DNA from: Polynucleobacter sp. MWH-S4W17
GTDB taxonomy: Bacteria > Pseudomonadota > Gammaproteobacteria > Burkholderiales > Burkholderiaceae
Direction of reading: 5' to 3'
NCBI RefSeq assembly: GCF_018687535.1
Contig: NZ_CP061295.1
Coordinates: forward strand, 1,426,001 to 1,490,000
DNA: 64,000 nucleotides
Part shown: positions 53,075 through 59,313 of the stretch, in pieces
How positions within the stretch are numbered: position 1 is the stretch's first letter
Layout: each line of letters begins with the position of its first letter
The notes under the pieces: model-generated
Databases searched by the model: none
Seen by the model: the letters and a program-made list of their open reading frames with translations, nothing else
What the model was told of the DNA's origin: nothing
Position numbers and translations under genes: made by a program

Positions 53075-53096
53075 TTAACATCCTTAATAAAAATAA

Positions 53097-53119
53097 AAAG
53101 CCCAGTCATGCTGGGCTTT
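53097..53119 (-). terminator. Terminator between csp gene and infA
   Basis: AAAGCCCAG and CTGGGCTTT arms with a TCAT loop, followed on the minus strand by TTTATTTT. It should end the csp transcript before infA. Confidence 0.8.
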
Positions 53120-53159
53120 GGACCAGGCAAATAATTTCCGCCTGGCATTTACTGCTGAT

Positions 53160-53363
53160 TTAAACAGGTTGAATATTGGATGCTAACTTGCCTTTAGGGC
53201 CAGTAGTAATATCAAAAGTCACTTTTTGACCTTCAGCCAATGTCTTAAATCCGTTGCTATTAATTGCTGAAAAATGGGCAAATAAATCTTCGCCACCGAG
53301 TTCAGGGGTAATAAAGCCGAAGCCTTTAGCGTCGTTAAACCATTTCACAATTCCGTTTGCCAT
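53160..53363 (-). CDS. Cold-shock protein (CspA family)
   Basis: A 67-residue OB-fold RNA chaperone with both RNA-binding motifs: KGFGFITPE (RNP1) and DLFAHFSAI (RNP2). It keeps mRNA unstructured and can open terminator hairpins. The start is preceded by AAGGAATAG. The leader carries a terminator-like GC hairpin (53392-53404), so transcription may be attenuated. Confidence 0.95.
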
Positions 53364-53391
53364 ATCTGACTATTCCTTAAAAAATATAAAA

Positions 53392-53404
53392 GGGGCTAAG
53401 CCCC
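53392..53404 (-). promoter_or_regulatory. Terminator-like hairpin in the csp leader
   Basis: Five G-C pairs (GGGGC / GCCCC) around TTA, followed on the minus strand by TTTTATATTTTTT and then the ribosome-binding site. The position 29 bases before the start codon suggests attenuation or the 3' end of an upstream transcript. Confidence 0.5.
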
Positions 53405-53600
53405 AAATGAGGCGAAAGTCAAGAATGGCGGGGGAGATGCTAAGAAGAACTATCGCAGAACTGCGGTATTAATTACTAGTACAACAACACTATTAGCTTG
53501 AAAATCGTTAAATGTATTTTACTCTACTTTAGTAACAAAAGACTATTTACCAACAAATCACCTTTATAACAGCCCTAGGTAACGTTAAAAGCACCTTGGC

Positions 53601-53669: not shown

Positions 53670-54011
53670 TTAATGCAGGTGCTCTGATACAGGCAGAGCC
53701 AAAGGTGCAGGATTGACCATTAACAGCTCATTAGCACTGAGCCCTGAAGCAAAGAGCTGGGCTAGCTCAGGCGGAATGTTCTCATTGGCACAATAAATTC
53801 CCCTTTGGCAACCAAACTTGATAACAATTAACCCAACAGCCGTAAGTCTCTTCAAATGAAAATCTAGCGTGCCTGAGTCCACACCAAATTTATCAATAAT
53901 TTCTTTTGGTCTTACCCCCACTTTTCCGGAGCGATAGATGGACATGAATACCTTAAATCTGGTCTCATGACCAAGAGCTTCAAAAATCGGCAGGTATTGG
54001 GAGATTTCCAT
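53670..54011 (-). CDS. ArsR-type winged-helix regulator
   Basis: A 113-residue regulator, starting at the ATG at 54011 because GAGGA precedes it; ATG 54029 and TTG 54050 lack a ribosome-binding site. The body PIFEALGHETRFKVFMSIYRSGKVGVRPKEIIDKFGVDSGTLDFHLKRLTAVGLI is an ArsR-like winged helix of the kind that lies next to arsenical or redox genes. The Cys pair in KFGCQRGIYC lies in the wing region, so thiol- or metal-based sensing is possible. No ars gene is nearby. It is downstream of a small secreted protein gene on the same strand. Confidence 0.82.
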   Translation of the reverse strand: MEISQYLPIFEALGHETRFKVFMSIYRSGKVGVRPKEIIDKFGVDSGTLDFHLKRLTAVGLIVIKFGCQRGIYCANENIPPELAQLFASGLSANELLMVNPAPLALPVSEHLH

Positions 54012-54055: not shown

Positions 54056-54382
54056 CTAGTTTGATGTGCCTGTTGTGAAATCTAAGATAGGTTGTGATTG
54101 GCCATGAAAATCGCGCATTGCAATATCGTGCACTGATTCACCAACTTCTAAGACCTCTTCTCTCACTTCATATTTAATGAGTCGGATTTCTTCGGATAGG
54201 GCTTCAGACTTCGGATCCAAATACGCAGGGATCTGGTGCGGATTATTTGGATTGGCGCGAACAACGTCATCCCCGCCCAATTGGATGTTCGTTGCGGCAA
54301 TCGCCACAGAGCCAAATACGAGCAATACAAGCATTAATAAAGCAACGAGTTGGTGGCGACCAAAAATAGAAGTTGATGGCAT
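54056..54382 (-). CDS. Small secreted or membrane-anchored protein, unknown
   Basis: A 108-residue protein I do not recognise. Residues about 9-30 form a hydrophobic signal or anchor (HQLVALLMLVLLVFGSVAIAA), after which the chain is acidic, with a helical stretch SEEIRLIKYEVREEVLEVGESVHDIAMRDF. A GGAG site precedes the ATG. It lies 44 bp before the ArsR-type gene and is divergent from the two-component genes; the 18-bp motif at 54441 lies 59 bp upstream of its start. Likely part of the regulon controlled there. Confidence 0.7.
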   Translation of the reverse strand: MPSTSIFGRHQLVALLMLVLLVFGSVAIAATNIQLGGDDVVRANPNNPHQIPAYLDPKSEALSEEIRLIKYEVREEVLEVGESVHDIAMRDFHGQSQPILDFTTGTSN

Positions 54383-54440
54383 GGCGGATCTCCGAAAAAT
54401 TGAACTTGAGCCATCCTAAAAGCTCCACTATCTCTTATCC

Positions 54441-54458
54441 ATAGCACTTTAGCTCTAG
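54441..54458 (-). promoter_or_regulatory. 18-bp regulon motif, copy 1 (reverse)
   Basis: ATAGCACTTTAGCTCTAG; its reverse complement CTAGAGCTAAAGTGCTAT differs from copy 2 at two positions. It lies in the promoter region of the minus-strand secreted-protein gene. Confidence 0.65.
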
Positions 54459-54554
54459 TCATGCAATTGTCATGATTTTCTCCAAGACTGAGTTTTGCGG
54501 ATTCTGGTAGAACCCGCTGATTAGCTCTTCTAATTAAAGGTTTGATCTTAAAAA

Positions 54555-54568
54555 TTGATCTTGGTCAA
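54555..54568. promoter_or_regulatory. FNR-type box upstream of the response regulator
   Basis: TTGATCTTGGTCAA fits TTGAT-N4-RTCAA (FNR/FixK anaerobox class). It sits 8 bp before the 18-bp motif and about 100 bp before the response regulator start. Confidence 0.6.
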
Positions 54569-54576
54569 TATTCGCC

Positions 54577-54594
54577 CTAGAGCTAAAGTACTAG
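54577..54594 (+). promoter_or_regulatory. 18-bp regulon motif, copy 2
   Basis: CTAGAGCTAAAGTACTAG, an imperfect palindrome with exact CTAG ends. It is 74 bp upstream of the response regulator start codon. Confidence 0.7.
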
Positions 54595-54668
54595 GTAGAT
54601 TGAAGTTACAAATGACATAATTATTCAACCAAATATAGCCATTAAAACAAGCAAAAATAGGGGTTTAC

Positions 54669-55262
54669 ATGCATTCTGTGTCATTGTTGATCGTCGATGA
54701 TCATCCGGTATACAGGGATGCTCTCCATCAGTTTCTTACTCGAAAATTCTTTTCCTCTGGTACTCAAGTATTTTCAGCAAATTCGATTAAAGAAGGTCTC
54801 AATATCGTCCGCTCTAAGAAGTCCAAATGGATCATTCTTTTGGACCTATTAATTCCGGATTCAGAAAATCAGCTTTTCGGGATCCAAGAATTTAAAAAGT
54901 GCGAAGACATCATTGCGATTGCCGCGATATCAGGTCTAGAAAAAGAAAGTCTAGAAAACGAGTGTCTTGATGCTGGTTGCAGTATTTTTATCCCGAAAAG
55001 CAGTGACACCTCCTTCATTTATCAAAGTTTGTGTAACTTGATGGGATTGAGTCCAAATGAGGCTGAACTGACGCAGCTTACAGACAGGCAAAAGCAAATC
55101 CTTCACCATATTTCCAATGGTGACTCCAACAAAATGATTGCCTACTCTCTTAATATCAGCGAACAGACTGTAAAGGTCCACTTAGGTGAGATCTTTAAGA
55201 AGATCAAAGTATTTAATAGAACACAGGCTGTTATTAAAGCCAAAGAGAATGGGTGGGTATAA
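54669..55262 (+). CDS. NarL/LuxR-type response regulator
   Basis: A 197-residue response regulator: receiver domain (residues 1-125) with acidic pair VDDHP and phospho-acceptor Asp59 in IILLDLLIPD, and a LuxR-type helix-turn-helix (about 135-190; LTDRQKQILHHISNGDSNKMIAYSLNISEQTVKVHLGEIFKKI). The receiver lacks the usual G-Y-x-x-K form but has FIPKS for the conserved Lys. It is followed after 3 bp by the hybrid kinase, its probable partner. It likely binds the 18-bp motif repeated around this locus (inference). Confidence 0.9.
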   Translation: MHSVSLLIVDDHPVYRDALHQFLTRKFFSSGTQVFSANSIKEGLNIVRSKKSKWIILLDLLIPDSENQLFGIQEFKKCEDIIAIAAISGLEKESLENECLDAGCSIFIPKSSDTSFIYQSLCNLMGLSPNEAELTQLTDRQKQILHHISNGDSNKMIAYSLNISEQTVKVHLGEIFKKIKVFNRTQAVIKAKENGWV

Positions 55263-55265
55263 GAC

Positions 55266-57023
55266 ATGGATGCCTTCTCAATGCAAAACAGCAATGAATT
55301 ACTGCTCGAAGAAAAGTATCAATTTCTTGAAACAGCCTCTAAAGCTAATACGGCTGGAACAGTTATTGGGCCCTTGCTCACTGGAATCTTAGTATTTCAG
55401 GAGGCGCCCCTTAGACCCCTCTCCATCTGGCTAGGAGTCATGTTGCTCTGCGTGATATTCAGGGCCTATATGGTCTTTACTAGAAACAAAGATCCACAAT
55501 TGTCGGTCAAAAGAAAAATATTCAACCTGAATCTTGGTGTATTCACAGTGACTGCATGTTGGGGCTTAGGCTGGCTCATTGTTGCACCAACCCTCCCATT
55601 TAACTTGCAGTGCTTATATCTTTTGATGAGCTCAACTGCAGTGTTTGTAGGGCTTTATGGTTACTCGATTCATCGCTCAACCTTTATCTGCTTTGCACTA
55701 CCGATCTTTGCAGGTCAATTTATTTCCTCGCTGACACCTCCGTTCATGTTTCCATGGCCGATCCTCATGGGTGAATTTGCGTTTTCACTGTACGCAATCA
55801 AAATGTCATCTTATTTTTCCAGCTCATGGATTAAAACAGTCAGCCTACAAATTCAAAACCAAGCTCTCAATAAAGAATTAGAGCTCGAGCGCAATAGTGC
55901 AATTGCGGCAAATATTACCAAATCAAAATTTATTGCAACCGCTAGCCATGACCTCAGGCAGCCACTTCATGCTGTCAATATCTATCTAGATCTATTTGAG
56001 CCAAATAAACTCAATCCCAAGGAAAAGATTAACTTCCTACAAATCAGAAAGAGTATCCAAACCTTAAACTCCATGTTTAAGTCTCTTTTAGACTTGAGCA
56101 AGTTGGATGCGGGTGCATCCAATAAGCTAGAAAAGCCTTTTGAACTCATAGAGCTGGTTGGCTTCTTATCCAATACCTTTACCCCCATTGCAGCCAGTAA
56201 AAATCTAGTGCTTCAGTTTGACTTCTTTAACATGGGAGTCAATGGTGACAAGTTTCTGCTGCAGCAGCTGCTTGGCAACTTAATATCTAATGCAATTCAA
56301 TACACGGCATCGGGAACGGTTAAAGTCAAACTCACCTCCAGTAATGATTGCTTGCACATATCCATCAAAGATACAGGCTATGGCATTGACCCAACCCTAC
56401 TAGATAAGATATTTGATGAATTCTTTAGGGTGGATAGCACTCGAAACATGCATGATGGTCTTGGCTTGGGTCTATCGATCGTCAAGCGACTCTGCAAAAC
56501 ATCCAATACAGACTTGGTCGTTGAATCAGAGCTGGGATCTGGTACCACTTTCAATCTTCAAACACAGTATTCCACCATTACCCTCGCTGAGGGTGCTGAA
56601 ACACTAACCCAACGATCAAACCTATTGGCCCCAAATACTCAAGAAGCTCTTTTGGAAGCAAAAACAATTGCGGTTTTTGAAGATGATCACACTATTTTTG
56701 AAGCCTATAAGCAAGCGCTGACACAAAATGGGTTCAATGTTCTATTACTCTCCGAGAATAGTCACGAATTGGCAAACCAATTAGCCACTATTAATCACAT
56801 TGATTGCATTCTCAGTGACTATCGCCTGGAAACGACTACTGGAGATCTCATTATTCAGCAACTGCGCGATAGTTTTGGCATAGACATTCCATCCATCATC
56901 ATTACCGCGGACACCTCCCCCCAGCATATTCAGCTATTTAAAGGCTTAAATATTGAGGTGCTATATAAGCCCATCGGCTATAGCGATATCGTCGACGCAA
57001 TCAAGCTACTACTAAAAAAATAA
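55266..57023 (+). CDS. Hybrid sensor histidine kinase
   Basis: A 585-residue kinase. Residues about 28-180 hold six to seven hydrophobic helices of an integral membrane sensor; I do not recognise the sensor type. HisKA follows with the phospho-acceptor His228 in ATASHDLRQPLHA, then a HATPase with GNLISNAIQYT (N box), DTGYGIDP and GLGLGLSIV, and a C-terminal receiver (VFEDDHTIFEAYKQAL, ILSDYRLETTTGD, LYKPIG). The S-H-D-L-R-Q-P-L-H form is frequent in Burkholderiaceae hybrid kinases paired with NarL-type regulators. Confidence 0.9.
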   Translation: MDAFSMQNSNELLLEEKYQFLETASKANTAGTVIGPLLTGILVFQEAPLRPLSIWLGVMLLCVIFRAYMVFTRNKDPQLSVKRKIFNLNLGVFTVTACWGLGWLIVAPTLPFNLQCLYLLMSSTAVFVGLYGYSIHRSTFICFALPIFAGQFISSLTPPFMFPWPILMGEFAFSLYAIKMSSYFSSSWIKTVSLQIQNQALNKELELERNSAIAANITKSKFIATASHDLRQPLHAVNIYLDLFEPNKLNPKEKINFLQIRKSIQTLNSMFKSLLDLSKLDAGASNKLEKPFELIELVGFLSNTFTPIAASKNLVLQFDFFNMGVNGDKFLLQQLLGNLISNAIQYTASGTVKVKLTSSNDCLHISIKDTGYGIDPTLLDKIFDEFFRVDSTRNMHDGLGLGLSIVKRLCKTSNTDLVVESELGSGTTFNLQTQYSTITLAEGAETLTQRSNLLAPNTQEALLEAKTIAVFEDDHTIFEAYKQALTQNGFNVLLLSENSHELANQLATINHIDCILSDYRLETTTGDLIIQQLRDSFGIDIPSIIITADTSPQHIQLFKGLNIEVLYKPIGYSDIVDAIKLLLKK

Positions 57024-57046
57024 TATTAAATTGAAAGATCTAATAA

Positions 57047-57754
57047 ATGAGTACTTTTAAATTCATCCGCCTTGCAACAATCATTACCATCCTATTTTCT
57101 GGCTACGTGTATGCAGAGACCAAAGCAAATTCCTGGTCTGGCGCATACGGACAAGTGGGTTTAATTGGGTACGAGAGTTATATACCCAAAGGCGCAAGTG
57201 GGACAACAACAACTGCGAGCGGGGTTACATTTCCGAATACCTCAACTGCAGATCACGCCAATGGGCCTGCAGCCAATATCGGAATCGGCTACAACTTTGA
57301 TCTAGGCAGCAGCTATTTATTGGGCATTGGCGCTGCTTTGTATCCCGGCCACTCGAGATCTGCAAGCTCTACGCTAGTGACAACTACGCCCGCCGGTGCA
57401 TCTGTGAAAACCGGAACATATGATGTGTCAAACATTTTTAGTTTTTCTTTGCTCCCGGGTTATGTCATTGATCAGGCCCGTTTGGTTTATGGAAAGATAG
57501 GTTACGCTGGGTCAACCCTCAACGCAAATTCACCCGGAAACTATCCGCAGCAATCCAATAGAGTGAATGGGACCGTTTATGGCATTGGCTATAAGCAATT
57601 TATTGCAGGATCCATCTATGCATTTGGCGAAGGAAACTACGCTGTGAATAGAGCAAAAGCAGTAACCGTGCTAACGGATAGTGGCGCTACCGTGAAATCT
57701 ACTGCCGATGCAACTGGATACGATATTGTTTTGGGCGTTGGCTACCACTTCTAA
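57047..57754 (+). CDS. Outer-membrane beta-barrel protein
   Basis: A 235-residue protein with a signal peptide (residues 1-23, ending VYAE) and amphipathic strands throughout (WSGAYGQVGLIGYESY, ANIGIGYNFDLG, YLLGIGAALYPG, LLPGYVIDQARLVYGKIGYAGSTL), ending in ...DIVLGVGYHF with the terminal Phe typical of BAM-assembled barrels. It resembles eight- to ten-strand barrels of the OmpA/OmpX-like surface antigen class. It follows the kinase gene by 23 bp, so it is probably part of the same transcript. Function unknown. Confidence 0.85.
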   Translation: MSTFKFIRLATIITILFSGYVYAETKANSWSGAYGQVGLIGYESYIPKGASGTTTTASGVTFPNTSTADHANGPAANIGIGYNFDLGSSYLLGIGAALYPGHSRSASSTLVTTTPAGASVKTGTYDVSNIFSFSLLPGYVIDQARLVYGKIGYAGSTLNANSPGNYPQQSNRVNGTVYGIGYKQFIAGSIYAFGEGNYAVNRAKAVTVLTDSGATVKSTADATGYDIVLGVGYHF

Positions 57755-57780
57755 TAGGCACAGATCTTCAGAGCAAAAAA

Positions 57781-57800
57781 AACCACCCCGAAAGGTGGTT
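57781..57800 (-). terminator. Terminator on the minus strand
   Basis: AACCACC and GGTGGTT arms around CCGAAA. The T-run lies only on the minus-strand side (complement of an eight-A run), so it terminates leftward transcription, from the 53-residue gene at 57919-58080. It may work weakly for the barrel gene too. Confidence 0.7.
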
Positions 57801-57877
57801 ATCAATATTCAAAAAACCGTCATGGAAATTTGAATAGCTACTGGATTCCTTTATAAAAGCTATCATCAAGAAGAATC

Positions 57878-57891
57878 TTGATCTAGGTCAA
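57878..57891. promoter_or_regulatory. FNR-type box, second copy
   Basis: TTGATCTAGGTCAA; differs from the box at 54555 at a single base. It sits 13 bp before the 18-bp motif at 57905, repeating the arrangement seen upstream of the response regulator. Confidence 0.55.
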
Positions 57892-57904
57892 TCATTCACT
57901 GCCG

Positions 57905-57922
57905 CTAGAACTAAAGTATTAG
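57905..57922 (+). promoter_or_regulatory. 18-bp regulon motif, copy 3
   Basis: CTAGAACTAAAGTATTAG; two differences from copy 2. It overlaps the stop codon of the 53-residue minus-strand gene and has no obvious plus-strand gene behind it. Confidence 0.6.
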
Positions 57923-58080
57923 TCTTGAATCGCTCTAACATTACCCATTGGGTCTGAGTGAACGCTCGGCAATGCTGGAGATTGATCCTCTGCATTAAGT
58001 TTATTAAAGGCCATCGCGCTTGCGATACCGATCAAGAATGCGCATACCGCCACAATTAAATTTGTATTGAGTTTTCCCAC
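57919..58080 (-). CDS. 53-residue single-span membrane peptide
   Basis: GTG start at 58080 after a GGGGAAG ribosome-binding site; ends at the TAA at 57919-57921. The protein MGKLNTNLIVAVCAFLIGIA... has one hydrophobic helix (residues about 8-24, ending SAMA, so possibly a signal peptide) and a polar tail rich in Asp, Ser and Pro. Two 18-bp motifs lie 100-150 bp upstream and a minus-strand terminator follows. I know no family. The combination of ribosome site, helix and terminator makes it a believable gene. Confidence 0.62.
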   Translation of the reverse strand: MGKLNTNLIVAVCAFLIGIASAMAFNKLNAEDQSPALPSVHSDPMGNVRAIQD

Positions 58081-58177
58081 TTGACTTCCCCATATGAATT
58101 AAAAAATGAAAGCTAATTTCTTTAGCCGGGGGAATAGTAATTCATAAAATGTGAAAAATTTATTAAAAACACATTTA

Positions 58178-58195
58178 TTAGAGCTAAAGTATTAG
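58178..58195 (+). promoter_or_regulatory. 18-bp regulon motif, copy 4
   Basis: TTAGAGCTAAAGTATTAG; two differences from copy 2. It is in the 297-bp non-coding gap 58081-58377, about 98 bp upstream of the GTG of the 53-residue gene. Confidence 0.65.
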
Positions 58196-58211
58196 CGAGA
58201 ATTTAGAGACG

Positions 58212-58229
58212 CTAGCACTAAAGTTTTAT
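58212..58229 (+). promoter_or_regulatory. 18-bp regulon motif, copy 5 (degenerate)
   Basis: CTAGCACTAAAGTTTTAT keeps the CTAG start and the CTAAAGT core. It lies 34 bp from copy 4 (start to start). The rest of the gap to 58377 shows no gene I can support. Confidence 0.5.
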
Positions 58230-58377
58230 ATCAAATTTATTTCAGTCTCTTATGATGAATCGTCATTCAGCGATCAACAAAGGAGTCTCTATAAAAATCC
58301 ACGCACTCAGCCTCCTTTGCGGTGGTGAGAACTAAGTGATCTAAATGGTCAATCATGCTTGTCTTCTTATCTACGCC

Positions 58378-59313
58378 TTATTGAGCGCGGCGTAATTCAT
58401 CCACGTAACTTGGCTCAGGATGCAACGTGGAGGTAGTACCGGCCTTTGCTACCTGCCCCGGCACCTCGTGCCCCACAATCTTTGGCAATTCTCTTGCCAG
58501 CTGTATTAGCTTGGGAATATTCATGCCGGTGTCATAACCCATCGCATCGAGCATATGAATCGCATCTTCACTGGAAATATTGCCACTTGCACCTGGTGCA
58601 TACGGGCATCCGCCCAGGCCACCCAATGAACCGTCAAAACGAACAATACCGGACTGTACTGCAGCTAAGACATTGGCTAAGCCCATGCCTCTAGTGTTAT
58701 GGAAGTGCAACGTCAGCTGTAGATTTGGGAATTGCTTCTGCAATGTATCGCACATTCTCTTTACTTGGTCAGGATTTGCCATGCCTGTGGTGTCGCAGAT
58801 TGTTACACCTCTTACACCGAGGTCTGCAAAACGTTTAGCGAACCCTTTAACCACCGTTTGAGAAACCTCCCCTTCCATGGGGCAGCCAAAACTAGTGGAA
58901 AGGGAAACATTAATGGGTGTTCTGCCATTAACGTACTTAATTACTTCAGCCAATCCAGTAAAACTTTTTTCTCGACCCATTCGTAGGTTGGCTAAGTTGT
59001 GAGTCTCTGAAGTCGACATCACGAGATTAAATTCATCAGCCTTAGATTCCAAAGCGCGCTCGGCACCTCTTAAATTGGGGACTAAGACGGTGTACTCCAC
59101 TCCAGGCACACGCTTAATACGCCCCATCACTTCCTCGGCATCTCGTAGCATCGGAATCGCCTTAGGCGAAGTAAATGAGGTCACTTCAATTTTGGCAAAG
59201 CCGCACTCACTAAGCTCATCAACCAGCTTTACTTTATCGTCTGTTGGTACAAAATTGGGCTCAATCTGGAAACCGTCCCGCATTACAACATCATTGAAAT
59301 AAATTCTGGTCAT
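58378..59313 (-). CDS. Hydroxymethylglutaryl-CoA lyase family
   Basis: Aldolase-type lyase of the HMGL-like family that splits HMG-CoA, or a related 3-hydroxyacyl-CoA such as citramalyl-CoA, to acetyl-CoA and a keto product. The TIM-barrel signature VVMRDGFQIEPN (metal-binding Asp and catalytic Arg), LHFHNTRGMGLANVLAA and the cysteine loop SLGGLGGCPYAPGASGN are present. 311 residues. It pairs with a CaiB-type CoA-transferase 10 bp upstream on the same strand, which would activate the free acid. Confidence 0.9.
   Translation of the reverse strand: MTRIYFNDVVMRDGFQIEPNFVPTDDKVKLVDELSECGFAKIEVTSFTSPKAIPMLRDAEEVMGRIKRVPGVEYTVLVPNLRGAERALESKADEFNLVMSTSETHNLANLRMGREKSFTGLAEVIKYVNGRTPINVSLSTSFGCPMEGEVSQTVVKGFAKRFADLGVRGVTICDTTGMANPDQVKRMCDTLQKQFPNLQLTLHFHNTRGMGLANVLAAVQSGIVRFDGSLGGLGGCPYAPGASGNISSEDAIHMLDAMGYDTGMNIPKLIQLARELPKIVGHEVPGQVAKAGTTSTLHPEPSYVDELRRAQ

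Follow-up and report, generated by a model that had tools for sequence, protein, structure and literature searches.

In a 64,000-nt stretch of the genome of Polynucleobacter sp. MWH-S4W17 (NZ_CP061295.1, positions 1,426,001-1,490,000; hereafter the window, to whose positions the coordinates below refer), five copies of an 18-bp motif surround a two-component locus. Sequence comparison, on which all results reported here rest, indicates that this motif is probably the operator of the NarL-type response regulator (RR) encoded in the locus, which would act as an activator, with FNR as a co-input and a small RNA as an output. The genomes compared share descent; the independent events are therefore fewer than the counts, and the p-values overstate significance.

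The preliminary description of the locus had reported the five copies, and all of them are present at the positions given in Table 1. Within the window, 4 occurrences of the 18-mer with at most three mismatches were found, compared to 0.03 expected from shuffles; the fifth copy was picked up by the 16-bp core TAGNRCTAAAGTNNTA and not by the 18-mer at this threshold. The 2.05-Mb genome contains 6 exact matches to the core, 5 of them in this locus, and a search of the whole genome allowing one mismatch gave 14 matches versus 19 for the reversed control. Thus, the motif is special to this place instead of being dispersed through the genome, and since the matches with one mismatch do not exceed the control, nothing points to a large regulon. 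Compiling 80 instances from related loci gave the core TAGARCTAAAGT[AT]YTA, which reads as the dyad TAGARCT-AA-AGTAYTA, two heptamers 2 bp apart (7-2-7). The motif had been described with matching CTAG ends and a constant CTAAAGT core; it is the 16-bp core that is constant, while the outer C (48/80 sites) and the outer G (37/80 sites) are only preferred. Location in non-coding gaps holds for the copies apart from that at 57905, which overlaps the 3' end of a 53-aa open reading frame (57919-58080, minus strand).

The candidate binding protein has the architecture of NarL/FixJ-type regulators (Pfam GerE 1.1e-20, Response_reg 3.2e-10). Among solved structures its DNA-binding domain is closest to NarL, with TVKVH retained. 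Scoring 78.6 bits against the NarL equivalog model (cut-off 250), it does not qualify as NarL itself, nor is it a member of its best curated match ErdR (NF041830; 90.2 bits, cut-off 390). We searched 151 Polynucleobacter genomes for the RR and for exact core sites. The RR is encoded in 16 of them, and each of these 16 contains at least two sites (mean 3.9), so that the motif is kept wherever the RR is kept; the named relatives include P. parvulilacunae and P. finlandensis. At least two sites were found in only three of the 135 genomes without RR (G105, G039 and G089): G105 and G039 hold remnants of the locus, truncated by the contig end in G039, and G089 has two matches of a variant core. Excluding G105 and G039, the background in genomes without RR is 0.11 sites per genome, and the co-occurrence of RR and motif has a p-value of ~6e-19 with relatedness ignored. 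The locus copy in G105 (L076, G105:C1:1163500-1171000) is decaying: the RR is gone and the kinase and barrel genes are frameshifted; the RNA element described below, the gene for the 53-aa peptide (pep53) and three operators persist. The next nearest RR-kinase pairs, those of Limnohabitans and other Comamonadaceae, have the same gene pair in the same order, with 40-43% identity of the RR and a kinase with homology across most of its length; however, no motif (up to two mismatches) lies near these genes, and neither the gene for the small protein sec108 nor pep53 adjoins them. A search of viral contigs for the RR yielded two distant relatives only.

The sites stand at fixed positions within predicted promoters, for which +1 was set to the 7th base after the conserved -10 hexamer and site positions are given as centres relative to that +1. 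In the RR promoters the site is centred at -42.5 in 17/17 readable cases, with an extended -10 of TGNNATAAT or close to it; the RR promoter of G034, the most diverged, was the sole unreadable one. On the divergent sec108 side the centre is at -43.5 in 17/17 promoters (-10 TANN[AT]T), and in the pep53 promoters it is at -59.5 (10 genomes) or -48.5 (2 genomes), a shift of one helical turn. Relatives carry a further plus-strand gene to the right of 58212, with the site at -42.5 or -43.5. Because the sites are found at fixed distances from the -10 elements and in one-turn steps, we infer activator geometry and activation by the RR, including that of its own operon. In E. coli, NarL sites are 7-2-7 dyads, and single sites activate from -44.5, -66.5 and -77.5 (PMC9314961). 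The preliminary description had already assigned the motif to the local response regulator; the dyad geometry, the fixed spacing to the -10 elements and the co-occurrence with the RR all argue for this assignment.

Two other ways of reading the sites have to be weighed against this geometry, and we regard both as improbable, to about the same degree. In the first, the RR binds the sites and represses FNR-driven promoters. Operators near -42 do occur in repressed promoters, and FNR boxes lie nearby, but the sites at -42.5 and -43.5 replace a -35 element that is not otherwise evident, and those at -59.5 and -70.5 lie upstream of the polymerase, in the one-turn steps typical of activators. In the second, the motif is the operator of the adjoining ArsR-like protein, which represses the island and has the two-component genes merely among its targets. 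The same activator positions, one-turn steps from the -10, argue against a role of this protein, as does the presence of arsR relatives (47-51% identity) in genomes without the motif (G018, G031, G086, G122, G147 and G148). In G012 the arsR gene beside sec108 is interrupted and the sites are kept, though a second arsR copy is near. What speaks for the ArsR-like protein is that its gene stands beside sec108 in nearly all loci with the RR and that its close relatives are found only there.

Two of the motif sites are adjoined by FNR boxes, which the preliminary description had overlooked. The boxes resemble TTGATNNNNATCAA and lie at class I or class II positions, -66.5 in the RR promoter and -41.5 in the RNA promoter, which would place both promoters in the FNR regulon. 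In the RR promoters the box at -66.5 was found in 14 loci, one of them with a degenerate box. Among the RNA promoters of 12 relatives, 7 have a clean box exactly at -41.5, 3 have a degenerate one and 2 have none. An FNR protein (G000:C1:1565123) with the cluster cysteines CSVCVLGQFC and the recognition helix ETVSRML is encoded in the genome. Since FNR boxes are present and an FNR with these cysteines is encoded, the locus appears to be under oxygen control.

No protein gene follows the 57905 site on the plus strand; the minus strand has the FNR box, an invariant TATAAA and a conserved stretch. This RNA element, located between the barrel gene and pep53, had likewise been overlooked. With respect to the predicted +1 at 57843, the centres of the FNR box and the RR site lie at -41.5 and -70.5, respectively. 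Among the 12 RNA promoters the RR site lies at -70.5 (9), at -69.5 (2) or is missing (1); in G061 and G408 it lies at -60.5, and no FNR box is seen. The terminator consists of an ACCACC/GGUGG stem and a U-tract, and the fold has a z-score of -3.67. In the alignment fitted to the model 98.7% of the cells pair, and three pairs are changed on both sides, all of them in the terminator stem. An Rfam search (4227 families) gave no match to the element. With a covariance model, 13 strong matches (at least 59 bits) were obtained in the 151 genomes, all with this locus or remnants of it; weaker matches resemble a common terminator, the one exception, located at a sec108 relative, being the match in G011 (49.8 bits). 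When 299 genomes of the family were scanned, all matches fell within Polynucleobacter, and one of them was in a previously unseen genome, G408. This held-out locus, found by the RNA model alone, contains the RR (64%), the kinase, the barrel protein, sec108, arsR, pep53 and four motif copies.

With its own predicted promoter, a conserved fold and an intrinsic terminator, the element has the features of a trans-acting small RNA, and we predict that the 57905 site controls this unannotated minus-strand RNA and not an envelope gene. The minus-strand -10, the hairpins and the terminator led us to abandon another reading of this site, a plus-strand transcript running antisense to pep53. It is unlikely, albeit less so than the two alternatives above, that 57775-57858 is a mere conserved terminator for converging transcripts and not a small RNA gene. 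The terminator hairpin alone matches the model weakly throughout the genus, and the end of the barrel gene adjoins it, but it is the minus strand that carries the T-tract, away from the barrel gene, and conservation extends to the upstream hairpin, the invariant TATAAA and the FNR box and motif with their precise placement. A terminator might be required for pep53 itself; the promoter of that gene, however, is farther upstream, which leaves the second promoter unexplained. Searches for targets of the RNA gave no clear excess of loop complements (16 vs 14) and no consistent signal in the duplex energies with seven local genes.

We propose the following circuit. A dimer of the RR would bind TAGARCT-AA-AGTAYTA and recruit RNA polymerase at promoters without a good -35 element. 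From -42.5 it would activate its own operon, comprising RR, hybrid kinase and outer-membrane barrel genes, resulting in positive autoregulation; from -43.5 and -59.5 it would activate sec108-arsR and pep53, respectively. The RNA of ~70 nt would be activated from -70.5, with FNR bound at -41.5, between the RR site and the -10. FNR, for which the RR operon has a further box at -66.5, would favour the circuit at low oxygen, and the signal of the six-helix membrane kinase would gate it. The circuit would yield a few small envelope proteins together with an RNA presumably base-pairing with mRNAs. The earlier proposal of one envelope regulon is supported overall by these data, with the amendment that the 57905 site serves a predicted small RNA and the 58212 site faces a gene lost in the window. 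The motif, its spacing, its co-occurrence with the RR and the conserved RNA element are seen directly in the sequences; from these we infer binding, activation and the action of FNR, as well as the transcription and function of the RNA.

Several observations weigh against the proposed circuit. Three RNA promoters have a degenerate FNR box, and G131, G111, G061 and G408 have none; G111 retains the RNA without RR site or FNR box. Four genomes (G012, G073, G130 and G034) encode the RR and have no strong match to the RNA. In G105, three sites persist along with pep53 and the RNA despite the loss of the RR and a broken kinase, which we assume to be explained by recent decay. The shared descent of the genomes, with fewer independent events than counts, has to be added to these points.

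The sixth exact site of the genome (G000:C1:2004059) lies in a 162-bp cassette (G000:C1:2003999-2004160; L173-L177) that is found at varied places in different genomes. An initial reading of this site as a lipoprotein promoter was dropped, since it belongs to the cassette. The cassette is present in 5/151 genomes, all of which encode the RR (p 7e-6); the site is altered in G026. In four genomes it precedes a ~45-aa membrane peptide, and in the genome of the window the peptide is gone and the -10 is not clear. The cassette adjoins a stretch resembling a tRNA 3' end. Its movement might suggest that all copies are a spreading repeat and not operators. This is very improbable: the copies in the island share the 16-bp core only, with unrelated flanks, they hold fixed positions relative to the -10 elements, and the background in genomes without RR is as low as stated above.

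Table 1. Features of the locus in window coordinates; promoter elements, operators and the RNA are predicted.
Feature	Position	Strand	Description
ArsR-like winged-helix regulator	53670..54011	-	probable second gene of the sec108 operon
sec108	54056..54382	-	small secreted or membrane-anchored protein; C-terminal D(Y/F)TTGTSN
sec108 promoter, -10 TAGGAT	54413..54418	-	predicted start 54406
Motif copy 1	54441..54458	-	putative operator of sec108-arsR operon, centre -43.5; same position in 17/17 relatives
FNR box TTGATCTTGGTCAA	54555..54568	.	centre -66.5 of RR promoter
Motif copy 2	54577..54594	+	putative operator of RR-kinase-barrel operon, centre -42.5
RR promoter, extended -10 TGACATAAT	54613..54621	+	predicted start 54628
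Response regulator (RR)	54669..55262	+	197 aa; receiver and LuxR-type helix-turn-helix
Hybrid histidine kinase	55266..57023	+	585 aa; six predicted transmembrane helices, HisKA, HATPase, receiver
Outer-membrane beta-barrel protein	57047..57754	+	235 aa; OMP_b-brl slightly below Pfam cut-off
Predicted small RNA	57775..57843	-	~69 nt; hairpin UAUUCAAA/UUUGAAUA, then intrinsic terminator; -10 TATAAA 57855-57850
FNR box TTGATCTAGGTCAA	57878..57891	.	centre -41.5 of small RNA promoter
Motif copy 3	57905..57922	+	putative operator of minus-strand small RNA, centre -70.5; overlaps pep53 stop codon
pep53	57919..58080	-	conserved 53-aa peptide; one hydrophobic stretch; GTG start
pep53 promoter, -10 TACTAT	58134..58139	-	predicted start 58127
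Motif copy 4	58178..58195	+	putative operator of pep53 (minus strand), centre -59.5
Motif copy 5	58212..58229	+	in relatives at -42.5/-43.5 ahead of a plus-strand gene lost in the window

The gene content agrees with the preliminary description, with one correction: comparison with relatives places the start of the ArsR-like gene probably at 54011. The best curated match of the kinase is to the NahK/ErcS hybrid kinases (NF041832; 239 bits, cut-off 400), of which it is not a member. Its structure model is of moderate confidence (pLDDT 69.5, pTM 0.36), and the matches listed from the PDB comprise only kinase cores or whole kinases, none of which identifies the membrane part. The C-terminal D(Y/F)TTGTSN of sec108 is found in most relatives, and in G034 and G130 a pep-like gene sits between the motif site and sec108. 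Distant sec108 relatives with TTGT-type tails stand alone, with no adjoining motif, in genomes without RR (L217-L222); sec108-like genes are a wider family. The predicted mRNA leader of pep53 (58080-58127, minus strand) contains a short inverted repeat, GCTAA/TTAGC, retained in most relatives, which perhaps forms a hairpin ahead of the start codon. At 58230-58378, relatives have a plus-strand gene for a ~114-aa secreted protein (YEPSECDG...) or a ~58-aa protein, without Pfam match, which is lost in the window. The cold-shock gene with its leader at 53094-53492 (minus strand) gave a full-length match to the cspA thermoregulator RNA (RF01766) that is below threshold (42.5 bits, gathering 78).

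Taken together, we lean towards regarding the locus as a self-contained Polynucleobacter island of ~4 kb in which one two-component system and FNR jointly activate a new small RNA family along with very small proteins, membrane-bound or secreted, whose families are likewise new (pep53, sec108 and, in a subset of genomes, the ~45-aa peptide on the moving cassette with the same operator). Among the papers searched, none connected Polynucleobacter with both FNR and small RNA, and the main text of a structured-RNA survey that names Polynucleobacter deals with other motifs (icd-II, carA and HRC-28-1; PMC8632094). Polynucleobacter is a common freshwater genus with small genomes, and here the sequence makes it possible to recognise the operator, the promoter positions, the co-regulator and a new RNA family. 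About five transcripts form a small set open to testing, and the locus gives access to very short conserved proteins with a possible role at low oxygen.

The predicted RNA promoter resembles those of nirB and nrfA of E. coli, where FNR at -41.5 is combined with an upstream RR site. The heptamer of NarL is TACYNMT, whereas that found here is TAGARCT/TARTACT; the sensor kinase differs as well, and the targets would be small envelope proteins and an RNA, with no nitrate genes in the island. The NarL/FNR promoters ogt and narG likewise have the 7-2-7 dyad, with single sites active near -44.5, -66.5 and -77.5 (PMC9314961). ErdR and NahK/ErcS provide the best curated matches to the RR and the kinase core, but the scores are far below the cut-offs, and the kinase described here has a six-helix sensor. 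Small RNAs that depend on a NarL-type and/or an FNR-type regulator include PaiI of Pseudomonas aeruginosa and NarS and FnrS of E. coli; NarS is cut from the narK mRNA, and ANR probably acts on PaiI via NarXL (PMC5703892, PMC8139620). A dependence of this kind is suggested here by the sites, but in contrast to these RNAs the predicted one is of ~70 nt, without Rfam match, and would be transcribed from a promoter of its own in which the two sites are adjacent.

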